Shown piece by piece: positions 3,504-9,186 of a stretch of DNA of 36,919 bases. Location of the stretch: NCBI GenBank assembly GCA_011389655.1, contig JAABTX010000025.1:1-36919 (forward strand). Reading direction: 5' to 3'. Source of the DNA: Thioalkalivibrio sp. (GTDB lineage Bacteria; Pseudomonadota; Gammaproteobacteria; Ectothiorhodospirales; Ectothiorhodospiraceae). Under the pieces are notes generated by a model that worked only from the letters and a program-made list of their open reading frames with translations, made no database searches and had not been told where the DNA came from. The stretch's first letter is position 1; every line of letters starts with the position of its first letter. Position numbers and translations under genes: made by a program.

Positions 3504-4157
3504 ATGACGCAAGCCCTGAACCTGGATCTGTCCCAATCGGTGGTCGTGGAGACGGCGGCACTGCCCTGGAGTGGTAGCCGCGCCGACGGCGTGGTGCGCA
3601 AGCCGCTGGAGCGGGAGCAGGCCGAGTCCGGCCGTGCCACCAGCATCGTCCAGTTCGAGCCCGGCACCCGTTTCCCGCCGCACACCCATGCGCTGGGCGA
3701 GGAGATCCTGGTGCTCGACGGCGTTTTCTCCGATGACACCGGCGACTATCCCGCCGGAACCTACCTGCGGAACCCGCCCGGTTCCCGCCACGCGCCGCAC
3801 TCGGACCCTGGTTGCACGTTGTTCGTGAAGCTCGAACAGTTCGCACCCGAGGACCGCGAGAAGGTGGTGGTAGATACCTGCGCCGCATCCTTCCAGCCGG
3901 GCATCGGAGGTCTGCGCGTGCTGCATCTGCACAGCTTCGAGAACCAACATACGGCGCTGGTGCACTGGCCGGCCGGAGAGCATTTTCAGCCGCACCGGCA
4001 CTGGGGCGGTGAGGAGATCCTGGTGTTGTCGGGCGAGTTCATCGATGAACACGGGCGCTATCCCGCCGGAACGTGGATGCGCAGTCCGCACCATAGCCAG
4101 CACAACCCCTGGGTCGAGCAGGAGACCCTGATCTACGTGAAGACCGGTCACCTGTGA
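3504..4157 (+). CDS. Tandem cupin protein (ChrR-like cupin domains)
   Basis: A 217-residue cytoplasmic protein made of two similar cupin domains. The first has RFPPHTHALGEEILVLDG (His60, His62, Glu66) and a second motif DYPAGTYLRNPPGSRHAPHS. The second repeats this as HFQPHRHWGGEEILVLSG (His164, His166, Glu170) and RYPAGTWMRSPHHSQHNP. Both keep the His-x-His...Glu...His set expected to bind a metal. The arrangement resembles the cupin_7 domain found at the C-terminus of ChrR anti-sigma factors, but there is no zinc anti-sigma domain here and no sigma gene next to it. A GGAG ribosome site lies just upstream. It could be a metal-dependent dioxygenase or a small-ligand sensor; the sequence does not decide. 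Confidence 0.85.
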   Translation: MTQALNLDLSQSVVVETAALPWSGSRADGVVRKPLEREQAESGRATSIVQFEPGTRFPPHTHALGEEILVLDGVFSDDTGDYPAGTYLRNPPGSRHAPHSDPGCTLFVKLEQFAPEDREKVVVDTCAASFQPGIGGLRVLHLHSFENQHTALVHWPAGEHFQPHRHWGGEEILVLSGEFIDEHGRYPAGTWMRSPHHSQHNPWVEQETLIYVKTGHL

Positions 4158-4542: not shown

Positions 4543-5868
4543 ATGTCCCTGATCCCTCTCGATCCCCCGCGCCCGGATCGCCGCCAGCTGCTCAAGGCTG
4601 GTATGGCCGCTGCTCTGTTACCGCTTTCCGCCCTGGGGGCCAATACCGTGTCCACCCGGGCTCGCGTCGTCATCCTGGGCGGCGGCGCTGCCGGCATGTC
4701 GATGGCCAATCGCCTGGCCACGCGCCTCTCGGGCGCCCGCATTACGGTGGTGGAGCCACGAGAGCAGCATTACTATCAGCCGGGCTGGACCATGATCGCC
4801 TCCGGCCTCTGGGACGCCGAGCGCACTGTGCGCGCCAATGCCGACTTTCGCCCCGCCGGCATCGACTGGCTCAGCCAGTCAGCGGTTGGTATCGATGCGG
4901 ATGCGCGTCGCATCTCGCTGGCCGATGGCAGCACCCTGGACTATGACATTCTGGTGGTCGCCACTGGTCTGCAGCTCGACTATGACCGGATCGACGGCAT
5001 GTCCACGGACCTGATTGGCAGCCACGGTATCGGCAGCGTCTATGCCGGTCACCAGGCGGCTGCGCGCACCAGCGATGCCATCGACGCGTGGCTGGCCAGC
5101 GGTGGCGGCCAGGGGCTCTTCACCATGCCCCAGACGGCCATCAAGTGCGCGGGCGCGCCGATCAAGATGACCTTCACCACCCAGTCGCGCATCAAGAGCG
5201 TCGGCAACCGGGATGACTTCACCCTGGATTATTTCACCCCCAGTGACGACATGTTCAGCCAGCCCTGGAGCAACGAGTTCCTCAAGGAACGCTTCGATCG
5301 CGATGGCATCGCCCGCCATCACGGATGGCATCTGTCCGCCATCGACCCGCAGGCCCGCCAGGCCGAGTTCACCGGGCGCGACGGCCGCACGGAGACGCGC
5401 GACTTCGATTTCATCCATGTGGTACCGCCGATGAGCGCGCCGGACTTCGTCAAGGCGAGCGACCTGATCGCCCAGCAGGGGCCCTTCGCCGGGGAGTGGC
5501 TTGATACCGACATCTACACCATGCAGCACAACCGCTACCCGGAGGTGTTCGGCATCGGCGACGTGATCGGCGCGCCGATCAACAAGACCGCGGCCAGCGT
5601 CAAGGCCCAGGCGCCCGTGGTCGAGGCCAATATCGCCGCCTTCCTGGAGGACCGGCCGCTGCCCTTGCGCCATAATGGCTATACCTCGTGCCCGCTGATC
5701 ACGGCTATCGGCAGGGCAATGCTGGTGGAGTTCGGCTATGACAACGACATGGCCTTCCTTCCGTCGTTCGCGTTCATCGATCCCAGGGAAGAATCCTGGG
5801 CGGCCTGGGTGCTCAAGGAGTTCATGCTGCAGCCCGCCTACTACGCGATGCTCGAAGGACGCGTCTGA
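4543..5868 (+). CDS. sqr: Sulfide:quinone oxidoreductase with Tat signal
   Basis: A 441-residue flavoprotein of the SQR/FCSD family, expected to oxidise sulfide to sulfane sulfur or polysulfide and pass electrons to the quinone pool. A twin-arginine signal is present (DRRQLLKAG at residues 12-20, then a hydrophobic stretch), so it should be exported folded with its FAD and act on the periplasmic face. The FAD-binding motif VVILGGGAAGMSMANRLA starts near residue 42. The redox cysteines are in AIKCAGAPIK (Cys202) and YTSCPLIT (Cys383). These are the only two cysteines, so the third cysteine of some SQR types is absent. GIGDVIGAPINKTAASVK (about 337-354) is the C-terminal FAD-contact region. CAGGAG precedes the ATG. 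A small membrane protein follows 11 bases later, probably in the same operon. Confidence 0.9.
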   Translation: MSLIPLDPPRPDRRQLLKAGMAAALLPLSALGANTVSTRARVVILGGGAAGMSMANRLATRLSGARITVVEPREQHYYQPGWTMIASGLWDAERTVRANADFRPAGIDWLSQSAVGIDADARRISLADGSTLDYDILVVATGLQLDYDRIDGMSTDLIGSHGIGSVYAGHQAAARTSDAIDAWLASGGGQGLFTMPQTAIKCAGAPIKMTFTTQSRIKSVGNRDDFTLDYFTPSDDMFSQPWSNEFLKERFDRDGIARHHGWHLSAIDPQARQAEFTGRDGRTETRDFDFIHVVPPMSAPDFVKASDLIAQQGPFAGEWLDTDIYTMQHNRYPEVFGIGDVIGAPINKTAASVKAQAPVVEANIAAFLEDRPLPLRHNGYTSCPLITAIGRAMLVEFGYDNDMAFLPSFAFIDPREESWAAWVLKEFMLQPAYYAMLEGRV

Positions 5869-5879
5869 GGAGACATGCG

Positions 5880-6242
5880 ATGAAATTTACGCTTGCCGGC
5901 ATCTTGGCGGTGATGGCCCATGCCATCCCGCCTTTTCTACCACTGCTTCTGACCATTCTGGCCGTGCTGGTGCTTGCCCAGTTGCTCGGGCGCCTGCGCG
6001 GCTATCGCATGACCGCCCATCGCTATCGTCCGGTGGCGATCGTCGCCCTGGTGGCGGGGCTTTCCACCTTGTGGTGGCTACCCATGGCGACCCACTCGCG
6101 GCTCGCGTTCGTTGCCACGCCCACCGACTGGGCATTGCTGATAGCGGCGGCGCTCGGCGTGACGCTGATCACCTGGCTGGTGCTGCATCCGCTGAGCTAC
6201 CTGATGCGCGGCCCACGGCGGGGCCGGGGTACGCCAGCGTGA
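5880..6242 (+). CDS. Small three-helix membrane protein, sqr partner
   Basis: A 120-residue membrane protein with three predicted helices at about residues 14-36, 47-67 and 83-108, joined by short basic loops (LGRLRGYRMTAHRYR). It begins 11 bases after the sqr stop with a GAGGAG ribosome site, so the two are probably cotranscribed. It may belong to the DUF5368-like proteins, but I am not certain of that match. Position suggests a membrane anchor or quinone-side partner for the exported SQR; this is inference from context only. No cysteines or metal ligands stand out. The arginine-rich C-terminus should be cytoplasmic. Confidence 0.7.
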   Translation: MKFTLAGILAVMAHAIPPFLPLLLTILAVLVLAQLLGRLRGYRMTAHRYRPVAIVALVAGLSTLWWLPMATHSRLAFVATPTDWALLIAAALGVTLITWLVLHPLSYLMRGPRRGRGTPA

Positions 6243-6342: not shown

Positions 6343-6801
6343 CTAGGGCTTGATGAGTTGATAGCCGGCGGCGGTCAGATCCATGATCTGGACCACACCG
6401 GCATCGACCCGCGTCGCCCGGGGGGTCAGGGCAGGCTCCTGTCCTCGTTTGCGGGTCACCGCAGCGATGGTGTTACTGCAGGCGGAAAAGCGGACGCCAT
6501 GCCCATTGGCGAGGGAGTCGATGCGCCCGTTGTTGGAGTTGTCGGCAAAGAGCAGGCTCAGACCCGGACCGAAGGCGACGATCTCCACATCCACATTATC
6601 GGCGCCGTAATGGTTGATCAGGTTGTTCGCCACATTCAGCACCAGGGTCTGACGGGCCGGATTGCCGTCACTGATCTGGAGCACGACCTTGTGAGTGGCG
6701 AAGGGTTTTCCTTCAGGAGCAGCGGCAGCGGCGCCCGTGGCGAGCAGCAGCAAGGCAGCAGCGAGCGTGTATGTACGCAGCGTGGTCAGAACGGTGTTCA
6801 T
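6343..6801 (-). CDS. Periplasmic DsrE-like protein 1
   Basis: A 152-residue protein with a clear signal peptide (hydrophobic 13-22, cleavage after about ATGAAAAA) followed by a DsrE/DsrF-like domain. Landmarks are HKVVLQISDGNPARQT (about 37-52), DVEIVAFGPGLSLL (about 71-84) and VRFSACSNTI with Cys108. The C-terminus AGVVQIMDLTAAGYQLIKP matches the end of the second DsrE protein in this island. DsrE-fold proteins commonly bind or transfer sulfane sulfur on a cysteine; export to the periplasm is not the classical DsrEFH arrangement. I chose ATG 6801 because AGGAGA precedes it and a signal peptide follows. It is divergent from the sigma-factor gene and has a GGAATAAA promoter about 200 bases upstream with a long structured leader. 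Likely role: periplasmic sulfur carrier or ligand for the anti-sigma sensor (inference). Confidence 0.82.
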   Translation of the reverse strand: MNTVLTTLRTYTLAAALLLLATGAAAAAPEGKPFATHKVVLQISDGNPARQTLVLNVANNLINHYGADNVDVEIVAFGPGLSLLFADNSNNGRIDSLANGHGVRFSACSNTIAAVTRKRGQEPALTPRATRVDAGVVQIMDLTAAGYQLIKP

Positions 6802-6904
6802 TATCGAAGATCTCCTCTGGCGTTCCTGATTTGTACACGGGGACTCTGGGGTCCATTTGTCTTCCGAAGGCCGTTTCGACGGATATTTCGGTCTTCCTGA
6901 TGGT

Positions 6905-6969
6905 GGCCCGCTGCCCAACTCAGGGCACGGGCCGGTTCGCTCCCGTTTCGGAGGGCTCGGGAGCGAGCC
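6905..6969 (-). other. Two strong hairpins in the leader of DsrE gene 1
   Basis: Between the predicted promoter and the DsrE1 start, GGCCCG/CGGGCC with an inner TGCCC/GGGCA pair (6905-6933) and GGTTCGCTCCCG/CGGGAGCGAGCC (6934-6945 with 6958-6969) form two back-to-back hairpins. They should be transcribed in the 5' untranslated region. Roles in mRNA stability or attenuation are possible. I do not recognise a known riboswitch. Confidence 0.5.
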
Positions 6970-6991
6970 TTCCGGCCAGGTGACTGGATCC

Positions 6992-7019
6992 TAGAGATAG
7001 GCGAGGGTCGATTTATTCC
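6992..7019 (-). promoter_or_regulatory. Predicted ECF promoter for DsrE gene 1
   Basis: On the minus strand GGAATAAA (7012-7019) serves as a -35 and TATCTCTA (6992-6999) as a -10. The same two blocks at exactly the same distance occur upstream of the second DsrE gene at 9058-9085. The conserved CCTGGAATAAATC core is a reasonable ECF-type -35. The transcript would have a leader of roughly 180 bases. Confidence 0.6.
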
Positions 7020-7042
7020 AGGATTCGTACCTGGTCGTTCGG

Positions 7043-7069
7043 GGAATAAAAGGCCAAGCCCTGTCATCC
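7043..7069 (+). promoter_or_regulatory. Predicted autoregulated ECF promoter of the sigma gene
   Basis: GGAATAAA at 7043-7050 is the inverted twin of the minus-strand -35 at 7012-7019, separated from it by 23 bases. A weaker downstream block TGTCATCC (about 7062-7069) could be the -10. If so, transcription begins very close to the ATG at 7077 and the mRNA would be nearly leaderless, or translation starts at the in-frame ATG at 7110. Confidence 0.5.
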
Positions 7070-7076
7070 AGTCAGA

Positions 7077-7634
7077 ATGGAACCCCTTGGAGCCTTCTGC
7101 ACCGCGCATATGCTGCGCAAGCGCATTGCCGCCAGCCGGGATCGTCTTTTCCGTGTGGCGCTTGCGTGGAGCAGCGATCCGATGTGTGCCGATGACCTGG
7201 TGCAGGACACCCTCGAGGTGGCCCTTGACAAGGTACACCAGTTGCGTGACCCGGATCGGCTGTATGCATGGATGTACTCGATCATGCACAACGGCTGGCG
7301 TCACTGCCTGGTTCAGAGACAGCGGCGCCCGGAGTGCGACCTCGACTCATACCCGGTGCTGAGCGACTCCAACCCGGAGCAGGCCAGCGAACGGGAATCC
7401 GCGGTGGTTCGGGTTCGCAGGGCGATCGCCCGGCTCCCGGTGGGCCAACGCGAGGTCGTGACGCTGGTCGACCTCGAGGGGTTCACCTACCAGGAGGTGG
7501 CCGATATTCTGGACATTCCGATCGGCACCGTGATGAGCCGACTCAGCCGTGCGCGCGGATTCCTCCAGTCGGCGCTGCGCAGCTTCTACGACGACGGTGT
7601 TCGAAATGGCACGTCGCTGAGGAGAGTGAAGTGA
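7077..7634 (+). CDS. ECF-type RNA polymerase sigma factor
   Basis: A 185-residue group 4 sigma factor with only the sigma-2 and sigma-4 regions. Region 2 includes SSDPMCADDLVQDTLEVAL (about 32-50), RLYAWMYSIMHNGWRH and the basic QRQRRPE. Region 4 has ARLPVGQREVVTLVDLEGF (about 118-136), then the helix-turn-helix YQEVADILDIPIGTVMSRLSRA. No clear ribosome site precedes ATG 7077; the in-frame ATG at 7110 is an alternative start. Its stop codon overlaps the GTG start of the anti-sigma gene, giving translational coupling. A GGAATAAA element directly upstream suggests autoregulation. Its regulon probably includes the two DsrE genes that share the promoter motif (inference). Confidence 0.9.
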   Translation: MEPLGAFCTAHMLRKRIAASRDRLFRVALAWSSDPMCADDLVQDTLEVALDKVHQLRDPDRLYAWMYSIMHNGWRHCLVQRQRRPECDLDSYPVLSDSNPEQASERESAVVRVRRAIARLPVGQREVVTLVDLEGFTYQEVADILDIPIGTVMSRLSRARGFLQSALRSFYDDGVRNGTSLRRVK

Positions 7635-8353
7635 CTGGGTACAGGAGTTTCTCCGACAGCATGCTGCACGCCTTCGTGGATGCGCAACTGGAAGGCGCGG
7701 ACCGCGAAAGATTGCTTACGGCAATGGAGTCGGATGCGGACCTCCGCGACCGGGTTCACGAGTTGCGCCGGTCCAAGGAATGGGTCCAGCTGGCCTTCGA
7801 AGACATCCGTGCACCGGCACGGCCGGCGCACCGCGGTACCGCGGCCCGGCGTGGTTGGATCCGGCCCTCCCACGCGGTGGCGGCCTCGCTGCTGTTGGGT
7901 TTGGGCGGCTTTCTGACGGGCTGGTTCGTCCAGGAAATCCAGCGTCCTGGTCATGCACTGGCCGGTGCCGTGCTGGCCGCACAAGAGGAGGCCGGGAGTC
8001 TCCGGGTTGTTCTGCACATCGATCGTTCGGATGCCGAGGGGTTCGTATCGATCCTGGACGAGGCGGAGCGTCTGTTCGCGTCGGGCCGCGGCACGCCGGT
8101 GGCGGTCGACGTACTCGCCAACGCAGGGGGGCTGGATCTCCTCCGGACGTCCGTTTCGCCCCACGCCGAGCGGATCGCCGAAATGAGTCGTGAATACGAG
8201 AACCTTCGTTTCCTGGCCTGCGCGAACAGCATCGAGCGGTTGCGCGAGCAGGGGATCGAGCCGGTCCTGGTGAAGGAGGCCGACACCTCGACCACGGCAG
8301 TGGATCACATCGTCGATCGCCTGCATCGGGGCTGGACATACATCGGGACCTGA
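7631..8353 (+). CDS. Transmembrane anti-sigma factor with C-terminal DsrE-like domain
   Basis: A 240-residue protein in three parts. Residues 1-60 resemble the cytoplasmic domain of RsiW-type anti-sigma factors (MLHAFVDAQLEGADRERL, then ESDADLRDRVHELRR) but lack the His-x3-Cys-x2-Cys zinc motif. One transmembrane helix spans about 82-101 (VAASLLLGLGGFLTGWFV). Residues 122-240 look like a DsrE domain: GSLRVVLHIDRSDAEGF, TPVAVDVLANAGGLDLL, LRFLACANSIERL with Cys197, and HIVDRLHRGWTYI at the end. The cysteine motif and the ending match the two neighbouring DsrE proteins. GTG 7631 is chosen because GGAGAG precedes it and it overlaps the sigma stop; a longer upstream reading frame is a shadow of the sigma gene. 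With the N-terminus in the cytoplasm, the DsrE domain should sit in the periplasm and act as the sensor (inference). Confidence 0.8.
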   Translation: MTGYRSFSDSMLHAFVDAQLEGADRERLLTAMESDADLRDRVHELRRSKEWVQLAFEDIRAPARPAHRGTAARRGWIRPSHAVAASLLLGLGGFLTGWFVQEIQRPGHALAGAVLAAQEEAGSLRVVLHIDRSDAEGFVSILDEAERLFASGRGTPVAVDVLANAGGLDLLRTSVSPHAERIAEMSREYENLRFLACANSIERLREQGIEPVLVKEADTSTTAVDHIVDRLHRGWTYIGT

Positions 8354-8393
8354 AGGTCCGGGTCGGATCCGTACGGGATGTTGCCCACGGTTC

Positions 8394-8414
8394 GCCCGGG
8401 CCAGAGGCCCGGGC
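8394..8414. terminator. GC hairpin between convergent anti-sigma and DsrE2 genes
   Basis: GCCCGGGC at 8394-8401 and its exact complement at 8407-8414 form a tight hairpin with a five-base loop, midway between two converging genes. There is no T-run, so it may be a transcript-end structure and not a classical terminator. Confidence 0.4.
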
Positions 8415-8452
8415 TTCACGTGCAGTAGTCAGTGGGCCATGGGGGCAACGGC

Positions 8453-8899
8453 TCAGGGCTTGCTGTAGCTGAAGCCCTGATTCTGCAAATAGGAAATGTG
8501 CGCCACGCCGCTGGGGATGATGTCGTCAGCGGAGGCATCGTACAGCGTATCCAGCGCGATGTTCCGGCCGCTCAGGGTGTTGGCGCAGACGAGAAACTGC
8601 ACGTCCTGCATCTTCAGGTTTTCAACCCGGGCCCGCAGGTTTTCGTCCTCGTTGGCATGTTGCAGCAATCCGAGGCCATCGCCGTGCATCACGACCATGA
8701 TCTCCATATTGTCGGCCCCGACGGCATTGATATGGTTCTGAATGTTTCCGGTTGCTGCCATGTAGCGGCGTTCGTCGTCATAATTCACATGGTAGACGAC
8801 CTTGTGAATCCCGTATTCGAAGTCGCTGGCGGTGGCCATGGCGGGCAGAGTCATGATCAGCGCGAGCACGGTCAGGGTGACTATTCTGATTGGTTTCAT
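8453..8899 (-). CDS. Periplasmic DsrE-like protein 2
   Basis: A 148-residue DsrE-like protein with a signal peptide (MKPIRIVTLTVLALIMTLPA, then MATA-S). Landmarks parallel protein 1: HKVVYHVNYDDERRYMAA (about 32-49), MEIMVVMHGDGLGLLQHA, VQFLVCANTLSGRN with Cys105, and GVAHISYLQNQGFSYSKP at the C-terminus. The HKVVxH, C-A-N-T and terminal GVxxI...QGxxYxKP pattern is that of COG1416-type DsrE proteins. ATG 8899 follows a strong GGAGGAG. It converges on the anti-sigma gene and has its own GGAATAAA promoter about 150 bases upstream, identical in spacing to that of DsrE1. It is a paralogue of protein 1 and probably arose by duplication of the cassette. Confidence 0.85.
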   Translation of the reverse strand: MKPIRIVTLTVLALIMTLPAMATASDFEYGIHKVVYHVNYDDERRYMAATGNIQNHINAVGADNMEIMVVMHGDGLGLLQHANEDENLRARVENLKMQDVQFLVCANTLSGRNIALDTLYDASADDIIPSGVAHISYLQNQGFSYSKP

Positions 8900-9057: not shown

Positions 9058-9085
9058 TAGAGAGACGCTGGGGATGATTTATTCC
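9058..9085 (-). promoter_or_regulatory. Predicted ECF promoter for DsrE gene 2
   Basis: Minus-strand GGAATAAA (9078-9085) with TCTCTCTA (9058-9065) repeats the block order and exact 20-base offset found upstream of DsrE1. The surrounding ACGAATCCTGGAATAAATC is identical at both sites while the spacers differ, which points to conserved function and not just recent duplication. Confidence 0.6.
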
Positions 9086-9108
9086 AGGATTCGTTGCCGC
9101 GGGTTCCG

Positions 9109-9186
9109 GGAATCAGGGTGCGGTACCCGTTAACAGCCTGAGCGGGCAGGGGCGTCGATCCGGTCCTTGTGAAAGAGGCCGACACT
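9109..9186 (+). pseudogene. Remnant of a second sigma/anti-sigma cassette
   Basis: GGAATCAG at 9109-9116 sits exactly where GGAATAAA lies upstream of the sigma gene (31 bases from the opposite half-site in both cases). It is followed within about 40 bases by GVDPVLVKEADT (9151-9186), which matches GIEPVLVKEADT near residues 208-219 of the intact anti-sigma factor. Everything between, that is the whole sigma gene and most of the anti-sigma gene, is missing. The last bases run into the convergent HAD gene. This is what a deletion inside a duplicated cassette would leave. Confidence 0.6.

Follow-up and report, generated by a model that had tools for sequence, protein, structure and literature searches.

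The stretch of DNA analysed in this work, hereafter the window, comprises the 36,919 nucleotides of contig JAABTX010000025.1 from the gammaproteobacterium Thioalkalivibrio sp. (assembly GCA_011389655.1). Between positions 6343 and 8899 it holds an island made of the gene for an extracytoplasmic function (ECF) sigma factor, the overlapping gene for a membrane anti-sigma factor whose C-terminus is a DsrE domain, and two separate DsrE genes. This arrangement, first described in a prediction made from the letters of the window, has been confirmed through gene calls, the Pfam sigma regions and matches to the structure 1L1S. The sigma factor gene (7110-7634, forward strand) encodes a protein of 174 residues, or of 185 if an upstream in-frame ATG at 7077 is the true start; its product passes the Pfam cut-offs of Sigma70_r2 (PF04542) and r4_2 (PF08281), which gives the ECF architecture of regions 2 and 4, and its placement in a tree is described below. 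The anti-sigma factor gene (7631-8353, forward strand; 240 residues, GTG start) overlaps the sigma stop by 4 bases. The gene of DsrE1 (6343-6801, reverse strand; 152 residues) diverges from the sigma factor gene, and that of DsrE2 (8453-8899, reverse strand; 148 residues) stands after the anti-sigma gene on the opposite strand. Both DsrE-like proteins have a likely signal peptide, judged by eye from the sequence and not by a program, and are probably exported. Each of the three DsrE-bearing proteins holds one single cysteine, exactly where the original prediction had placed it: Cys108 in DsrE1, Cys105 in DsrE2 and Cys197 in the anti-sigma factor (codon 8219-8221, forward strand).

The assignment of the anti-sigma C-terminus (residues 124-239, encoded at 8000-8347 on the forward strand) to the DsrE family held in fold and in sequence similarity to 1L1S, and failed in Pfam. 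Only DsrE2 passes the DsrE family PF02635 (34.8 bits against a cut-off of 22.7), whereas neither Pfam nor NCBIfam gave a DsrE match for DsrE1 or for the anti-sigma C-terminus. A sequence search of the PDB matched all three to 1L1S, with E values of 4.8e-8 for anti-sigma residues 124-238, 4.3e-9 for DsrE1 and 1.3e-11 for DsrE2. A profile of 41 aligned anti-sigma factors reached 1.6e-20 against the same structure, and in the profile alignment the invariant cysteine of the family falls onto a cysteine of 1L1S. This structure is the free-standing archaeal protein MTH1491, whose record, labelled "protein of unknown function", names no function; we count it as DsrE-like because it matches the Pfam-positive DsrE2 and because of its neighbours in the fold searches.

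The predicted structure of the anti-sigma factor has a mean predicted local distance difference test score of 85, with lower values (51-81) in the linker and membrane part at about residues 60-120. The model begins with helices that reach residue 57, followed by a long helix at about 79-103, likely the membrane helix, and an alpha/beta domain at 124-239. In a Foldseek search, the top match was 1L1S (E 1.1e-9; template modelling (TM) score of 0.90 on the target), followed by named DsrE structures such as DsrEFH. Among the six matches below 1e-3, 3pnx, 2hy5 and 2qs7 are named DsrE or DsrE/DsrF-like, 8uja is an engineered DsrE-like protein, and 1L1S and 2pd2 are unnamed. The predicted fold of DsrE1 likewise has a TM score of 0.91 to 1L1S.

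A recurrent family with a promoter motif

Proteins similar to the anti-sigma factor were met in 37 of 58 genomes, that of the window included. A contig scan with the window anti-sigma factor as a single query gave no match, but an alignment of 13 anti-sigma factors retrieved 72 loci, from Thioalkalivibrio, Thiobacillus, Hydrogenophilales, Thiohalobacter, Gallionellaceae, Rhodocyclales, Cupriavidus and others; seven of them (L135-L141; here and below, L, G and C mark our numbered loci, genomes and contigs) match the N-terminal part only. Ten loci that repeat an already covered genome region were dropped before counting, and the counts below are over 73 anti-sigma factors. Genes in the loci come from our own codon-usage caller and not from annotation, with uncertain starts (soxC in L072 was full length or shorter depending on the run).

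Cys197 and His129 are invariant in the 73 anti-sigma factors, and Cys108 is kept in all 38 aligned DsrE rows. Five of the anti-sigma factors have a single cysteine and the remaining 68 carry two to five, so that for the window protein, in contrast to most of its relatives, an internal disulfide is excluded. Zinc anti-sigma factors carry the motif HxxxCxxC; this motif occurs in none of the 73 proteins, and such an identity was rejected. The recurrence of the arrangement, which the original prediction had left to a genome survey, was borne out, and the arrangement is not due to chance: of the 73 loci, 54 carry a separate DsrE gene no more than 2.5 kb from the anti-sigma gene, and a locus end cuts off 10 of the other 19. 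Many Thioalkalivibrio loci have the DsrE gene after the anti-sigma gene and in the same orientation, where it would not require a separate promoter.

In a tree, the sigma factors paired with DsrE anti-sigma factors fall in one group of 73 rows, with support of 97/98 and one long-branch intruder; the window sigma factor pairs with that of L071 (98/96). The nearest reference to the group is RpoE4 of Sinorhizobium meliloti, with weak support (82/56) and a long branch; its locus was identified by the sulfite oxidase gene next to it. The presumed RpoE6 belongs to a different group (it is the only pSymA match, at 1.3e-22, in an unannotated record, and its name is inferred). The window anti-sigma factor has weak similarity to the S. 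meliloti anti-sigma factors (E 0.066 and 0.004). The window genome encodes a second full sigma/anti-sigma pair, on contig C309, with no separate DsrE gene within 2.5 kb.

Every one of the three transcription units of the island has the same -35 element at a fixed spacing from the -10 element. The site of DsrE1 (6994-7019, reverse strand; GGAATAA-N15-TCTC) and that of the sigma factor gene (7043-7068, forward strand; GGAATAA-N15-CATC) stand back to back, and the site of DsrE2 lies at 9060-9085 on the reverse strand (GGAATAA-N15-TCTC). The related genome G003 has the same site before DsrE1 and also the sigma site, after which the contig ends before reaching the gene. In the window genome (3.46 Mb) the pattern GGAATAA-N17-TC occurs at eight sites, against two for the reversed control. 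Three of the eight are the island sites, and the others are located before soxA and on contigs C192, C204, C295 and C357. Those on C192, C295 and C357, with no same-strand downstream gene called, were taken as chance occurrences. The C204 site, of the window type, lies upstream of a thioredoxin-TPR gene, whose product we take to be YbbN-like, and overlaps the start of an opposite-strand gene.

Across the family loci, the motif GGAATA-N16-YVTC stands within 250 bases upstream of 66 of 72 sigma factor genes and 27 of 72 DsrE genes, but of only 3 of 610 other genes and none of 73 anti-sigma genes; the reversed motif was not found upstream of any of them. Genes with less than 200 bases upstream were dropped from this count, and sigma-like matches rejected by the filters for length or E value went into the class of other genes; one of the three other genes with the motif is soxX. 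A set of chance neighbours was rejected on the basis of these figures for sigma factor and other genes. Most of the sigma factor genes (61 of 72) have CGTC as the -10 element, whereas the window sites carry CATC or TCTC and keep GGAATAA. In L071, GAATAA-N15-CATC and GAATAA-N15-TCTC can be seen by eye back to back. The consensus reported for the ECF26 group is -35 GGAAT and -10 CGTC (PMC6527743), and the rpoE4 promoter is given as an example of it (PMC6180224).

Several further genes recur at these loci. A porin gene lies near the pair in 18 of them (Porin_O_P in the one tested) and adjoins DsrE1-type genes in L037, L088, L097 (3358-4686) and L109, possibly for the uptake of sulfur anions. A DsbH-like thioredoxin-domain gene (DUF255 in the one tested) comes directly after the anti-sigma gene in L076 (6707-8509) and L078 (from 1511 on), and its BLAST cluster is present in 15 loci. 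Short frames of 68-107 residues, similar to the anti-sigma N-terminus alone and with no DsrE part, were seen in several Thioalkalivibrio: G000 (C33, 4757-4942; L035), G003 (C227), G010 and G012. A plasmid scan with the anti-sigma factor gave only a free DsrE gene, in two records of one Methylosinus strain, beside soxZ and soxB. In one of these, plasmid pOB3b1 of Methylosinus trichosporium OB3b (L054), two DsrE genes and a DUF302 gene come after soxZ-soxB, and the 12 kb of this locus contain no sigma pair.

Sites before sox and sulfite-related genes

The common form of the motif, GGAATAR-N15-CGTC, was sought in whole genomes, and most downstream genes were assigned by BLAST to a small set of references. 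Checks with hidden Markov models covered representatives only: those of SoxA, SoxY, SoxB and CcoN pass the NCBIfam cut-offs, Pfam was used for two rhodanese genes and one GGDEF gene, and the SoxX reference, a gene after soxA with no NCBIfam match, owes its name to its position only. Thirty Thioalkalivibrio genomes hold 96 such sites, against 9 for the reversed control. More than half precede sox genes (52: soxA 27, soxY 23, soxB 2), 23 precede sigma factor genes and 11 rhodanese genes; the rest are before GGDEF genes (5), ccoN (2) and a DsrE gene (1), with 2 unexplained. Among relatives the spacers of these sites differ and the two boxes stay. The window genome has three of them, before soxY (C158), soxA (C301) and the paralogous sigma factor gene (C309).

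Eight more distant genomes gave 40 sites against 11 in the reversed control, and the typed ones precede sigma factor, DsrE, soxY and soxY-linked cytochrome genes. One precedes a gene for a metallo-beta-lactamase fold, whose best NCBIfam match, a sulfur dioxygenase, is far under the cut-off. Upon inspection of 30 loci in distant genomes, many sites were inside genes or had no downstream gene. In Cupriavidus sp. BIS7, a row of soxC, a cytochrome gene, soxY, soxZ and soxA diverges from the sigma factor gene, with a site about 250 bases before soxC. By BLAST clusters, with one representative each checked, soxYZA lie near the pair in seven loci and soxB in five.

The family also goes along with sulfur oxidation at the level of genomes. 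Among 274 genomes of the class, 112 have soxB above the cut-off, and 56 have a full-length anti-sigma-DsrE protein (a match from position 8 or lower to 237 or higher). Of these 56, 54 have soxB, while among the remaining 218 it is present in 58 (Fisher 4e-23, uncorrected for kinship).

Two minor groups of CGTC sites deserve a separate mention. The GGDEF gene (GAF-GGDEF in the one tested) stands behind the motif in five Thioalkalivibrio genomes (L151, L169, L197, L217 and L230), which suggests a possible link between sulfur sensing and cyclic di-GMP. In two others of our loci, L154 (G010) and L194 (G012), the motif precedes ccoN, of the cbb3 oxidase.

By the form of its -10 elements, the window copy is of a different subtype from the sox-type copy. 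A -10 of CATC before the sigma factor gene is also found in the early-branching lineages of G045 (C52), G031, G034 and G036, whose placement relative to the window lineage is not firm. In five genomes, GGAATAA-N15-YMTC occurs at 29 sites, against 4 for the reversed control. In the window genome and G003 the sites lie before DsrE1, the sigma factor gene and the thioredoxin-TPR gene. In G031, G034 and G036, all of one genus, CATC-type sites precede a SorA/SoxC-like molybdenum enzyme, with proteins below the NCBIfam cut-offs, and in G034 and G036 also ModE-ModA. Genes for a cytochrome c and a PstS-like protein, among others, lie behind additional sites. Several sites are inside genes, have no downstream gene, or stand before genes with no evident sulfur role (a long gene divergent from the sigma factor gene, the PstS-like one), so that the CATC regulon is less sharp than the CGTC regulon. 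In L045, a SorA-like gene (below the cut-off) lies two genes before the sigma factor gene, the SorA-like and SorB-like genes being directly upstream of it. From these neighbours, the window copy may answer to sulfite or a related species, and its firm predicted targets are only its own operon and the two DsrE genes.

As a side observation, a ModA-like binding-protein gene (just under the NCBIfam cut-off) comes after the anti-sigma gene in loci linked to sox (L117, 2350-3306, and its cluster in L097, L101, L106 and L109), which matches the molybdate theme of the CATC sites.

A probable periplasmic sulfur switch and its alternatives

We consider it probable that the island encodes a periplasmic sulfur-sensing sigma switch, ECF26-like and with a new sensor domain, which would free the sigma factor for its own operon and the DsrE genes, and in sister copies for sox genes. 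The N-terminal domain of the anti-sigma factor would hold the sigma factor in the cytoplasm at the inner membrane, and the DsrE domain would act as a sensor in the periplasm, where the usual periplasmic part of such proteins would stand. The signal would be a sulfur species, oxidised or sulfane, that arises outside the cytoplasm: thiosulfate, tetrathionate, polysulfide or sulfite. Arriving directly or through Sox or DsrE proteins, it would load Cys197 or bind beside it, and the sigma factor would be released by proteolysis or by a change of shape. The architecture of the pair is that of other membrane sigma/anti-sigma pairs, the cysteine is invariant, the family is tied to sulfur oxidation, and a DsrE homologue is known for thiosulfonate chemistry. 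Loading of Cys197 appears the likeliest mechanism. Once freed, the sigma factor would transcribe its own operon and the DsrE genes, and the sister switches would transcribe sox genes or, in one related genus, sulfite-dehydrogenase-like and molybdate genes. The free periplasmic DsrE proteins would then be products of the regulon; they would probably transport the same sulfur or take it away, and so complete a feedback loop. Within this reading, we infer the membrane topology, the use of the sites in the cell, the sensing by Cys197, the identity of the signal and the role of the free DsrE proteins.

The original prediction of a sulfur- or thiol-sensing sigma switch is thus partly supported: its link to sulfur gained from the promoter motif, which ties the sigma family to sox, rhodanese, DsrE and sulfite-dehydrogenase-like genes, and from the co-occurrence with soxB, and the sensing by the DsrE domain keeps the standing of a proposal. 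The system would give cells a way to feel outside sulfur through a membrane-spanning switch, whose sensor has the fold of a sulfur carrier and one invariant cysteine, and whose likely targets are apparent from the genomes of Thioalkalivibrio and, with lower counts, of other beta- and gammaproteobacteria. For the study of sulfur oxidisers this amounts to a concrete mechanism that can be tested, together with a sulfur-responsive regulator ready for use, whose promoters are short and well defined. Sulfane-sulfur-responsive repressors of sox genes act in the cytoplasm.

As for what is already known, the sensing of external sulfur by regulators of sulfur oxidation has been called poorly understood (PMC11582611). 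The closest system is formed by RpoE4-EcfR4 and RpoE1 of S. meliloti, which control SorT (PMC3511301, PMC6180224) and share with the island a sigma/anti-sigma pair, a -35 GGAATA, a -10 holding GTC, sulfur target genes, and an anti-sigma factor with a cytoplasmic N-terminus and a membrane helix. However, the C-terminal periplasmic domain of EcfR has been called RsiW-like (PMC6180224), and EcfR4 gave no phmmer match to 1L1S, so that in this sequence comparison no DsrE sensor is seen, unlike in the window anti-sigma factor. No DsrE or sox regulon was met for the S. meliloti pair in the available parts of these papers, and the link in the tree is the weak one given above. SigE-SorAB of Starkeya novella (PMC6527743) also has an ECF sigma factor, beside a sulfite dehydrogenase, with -35 GGAAT and -10 CGTC, but it targets sulfite oxidation as a stress response, and its paper makes no mention of DsrE. 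The ECF sigma-2 of Arcobacter butzleri (PMC3445524) activates sox genes, and nap genes as well; its likeness lies in the described sox activation, and DsrE goes unmentioned in that paper. SoxR and sHdrR (PMC10451225, PMC12423496) exert a sulfane-sulfur-responsive control of sulfur-oxidation genes, but they are repressors of the ArsR type and not membrane anti-sigma factors with a periplasmic sensor. In DsrE3A of Metallosphaera cuprina (PMC4175335) a DsrE cysteine accepts thiosulfonate from tetrathionate, in a sulfur carrier rather than a regulator. MTH1491 shares the fold and the aligned cysteine, and differs as a free-standing protein. In a transcriptome of two Thioalkalivibrio under arsenite, DsrE/F-like genes of unclear roles change, and sox goes up in one of them (PMC6620896). 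Our search of the open-access literature turned up neither an anti-sigma factor that carries a DsrE domain nor any case of ECF control of sox in these bacteria. What had been announced as an undescribed switch therefore appears new in its DsrE sensor domain and in its sox and DsrE promoter sites, but not in its sigma factor, which resembles the ECF26 group with its known sulfite-responsive members (PMC3511301, PMC6527743). For this group Staron et al. had proposed the provisional label "regulation of thiosulfate oxidation", without experimental support according to PMC3511301.

A number of observations weigh against a sulfur-sensing sigma switch. The switch of the anti-sigma-DsrE family is predicted from sequence and modelled folds, and the N-terminal domain of the anti-sigma factor has no Pfam match. 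The signals of known ECF26 factors are sulfite-linked, which means that thiosulfate itself may not be the signal. The pattern GGAATAA-N17-TC was picked after the island sites had been seen, so that the tests on other genomes weigh more; among these, the 30 Thioalkalivibrio genomes are close relatives with inherited sites, which makes their counts dependent on one another. Beyond the genus, CGTC sites are not more numerous than those of the reversed control: seven further genomes of the family gave 8 of each, and 21 genomes from other families gave 26 against 21. There the motif is supported only by gene identity, with sites before the sigma factor gene and soxB in G031, G034 and G036, and likewise in G045. 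In the window genome, no sox or sulfite gene was found behind the window-type CATC/TCTC form, no such site lies upstream of its SorA-like gene (C103), and beyond the island only the thioredoxin-TPR gene, conserved in G003, follows one. The 19 loci with no DsrE gene within 2.5 kb, the ten truncated ones among them, indicate that free DsrE proteins need not join the sensing step. Finally, two of the 56 genomes with the full-length protein have no soxB above the cut-off: G135, with a match below it, and G091, which is not among the genomes with a match.

The strongest competitor, which we hold somewhat less likely than not to be correct yet take seriously, is that the window copy is a sulfite-stress system like that of RpoE4 in S. 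meliloti, with a DsrE domain that senses sulfite or an adduct of it, and that its paralog on C309 alone is the thiosulfate/sox regulator. This would fit the CATC sites before molybdenum enzymes and ModE-ModA, the Sor-like genes of L045, and the response of the ECF26 factors RpoE1 and RpoE4 to sulfite (PMC3511301). On the other hand, the three genomes with SorA-like targets represent one genus, the SorA-like gene of the window genome lacks the site, and none of the tested enzymes passes the NCBIfam cut-off of SorA, SorT or SoxC.

A docking role for the DsrE domain is a more doubtful explanation. Instead of acting as a chemical sensor, the domain would form mixed oligomers with free DsrE1 and DsrE2, whose abundance or sulfur load would set the release of the sigma factor. 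The three DsrE domains do have one fold and one cysteine position in common, and DsrE genes stand behind the motif and near the anti-sigma gene with the frequencies already given; nine loci with sufficient flank, the paralog on C309 among them, nonetheless have no separate DsrE gene. A related idea, which we find unlikely and slightly more so than docking, sees the DsrE proteins as a periplasmic relay from Sox sulfur to free DsrE and on to Cys197, in which the flux of sulfur and not a diffusing metabolite would set the transcription of sox, DsrE and sulfite genes.

It is improbable that the island is a general thiol or redox stress switch, in which any electrophile or oxidant acting on Cys197 would free the sigma factor and the sox link would reflect the lifestyle of the host. 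The single invariant cysteine and the thioredoxin-TPR gene with the same site in G000 and G003 would agree with it, but no oxidative-stress gene was recognised among the 96 CGTC sites, of which those before sox genes and rhodaneses make up the larger part.

Island history and neighbouring genes

Beyond the DsrE2 gene, on the side of its promoter, the window keeps the traces of a duplication. The promoter block 6992-7047 recurs at 9058-9113 with 77% identity, as a duplication scar, and a remnant of the anti-sigma 3' end lies at 9150-9185 (forward strand; 86% identical to 8251-8286); their alignment scores of 115 and 68 compare with shuffle maxima of 35 and 34. The simplest reading is that a second island lost its sigma and anti-sigma genes and left DsrE2 with its promoter. 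In G003 there is no DsrE2 between the anti-sigma gene and the next gene, of the HAD type. That the whole island is a degenerate, inactive copy decaying after the duplication is very improbable, for despite the scar at 9058-9185 and the presence of close relatives of this copy in only two of the 30 genomes of the genus, its four frames are all open with the invariant residues kept, and G003 retains 75% anti-sigma identity and both promoter sites.

On the other side of the island, the protein encoded at 3504-4157 is made of two stretches of the ChrR cupin type (PF12973, 1.2e-63), and Pfam recognises no anti-sigma domain in it. Directly beside the island, and devoid of the promoter motif, lie the genes of a sulfide:quinone-reductase-like flavoprotein (4543-5868; NF049943 at 1.2e-56, below the cut-off), with a Tat-type start by eye, and of a DUF5368-like protein (5880-6242) just under the cut-off.

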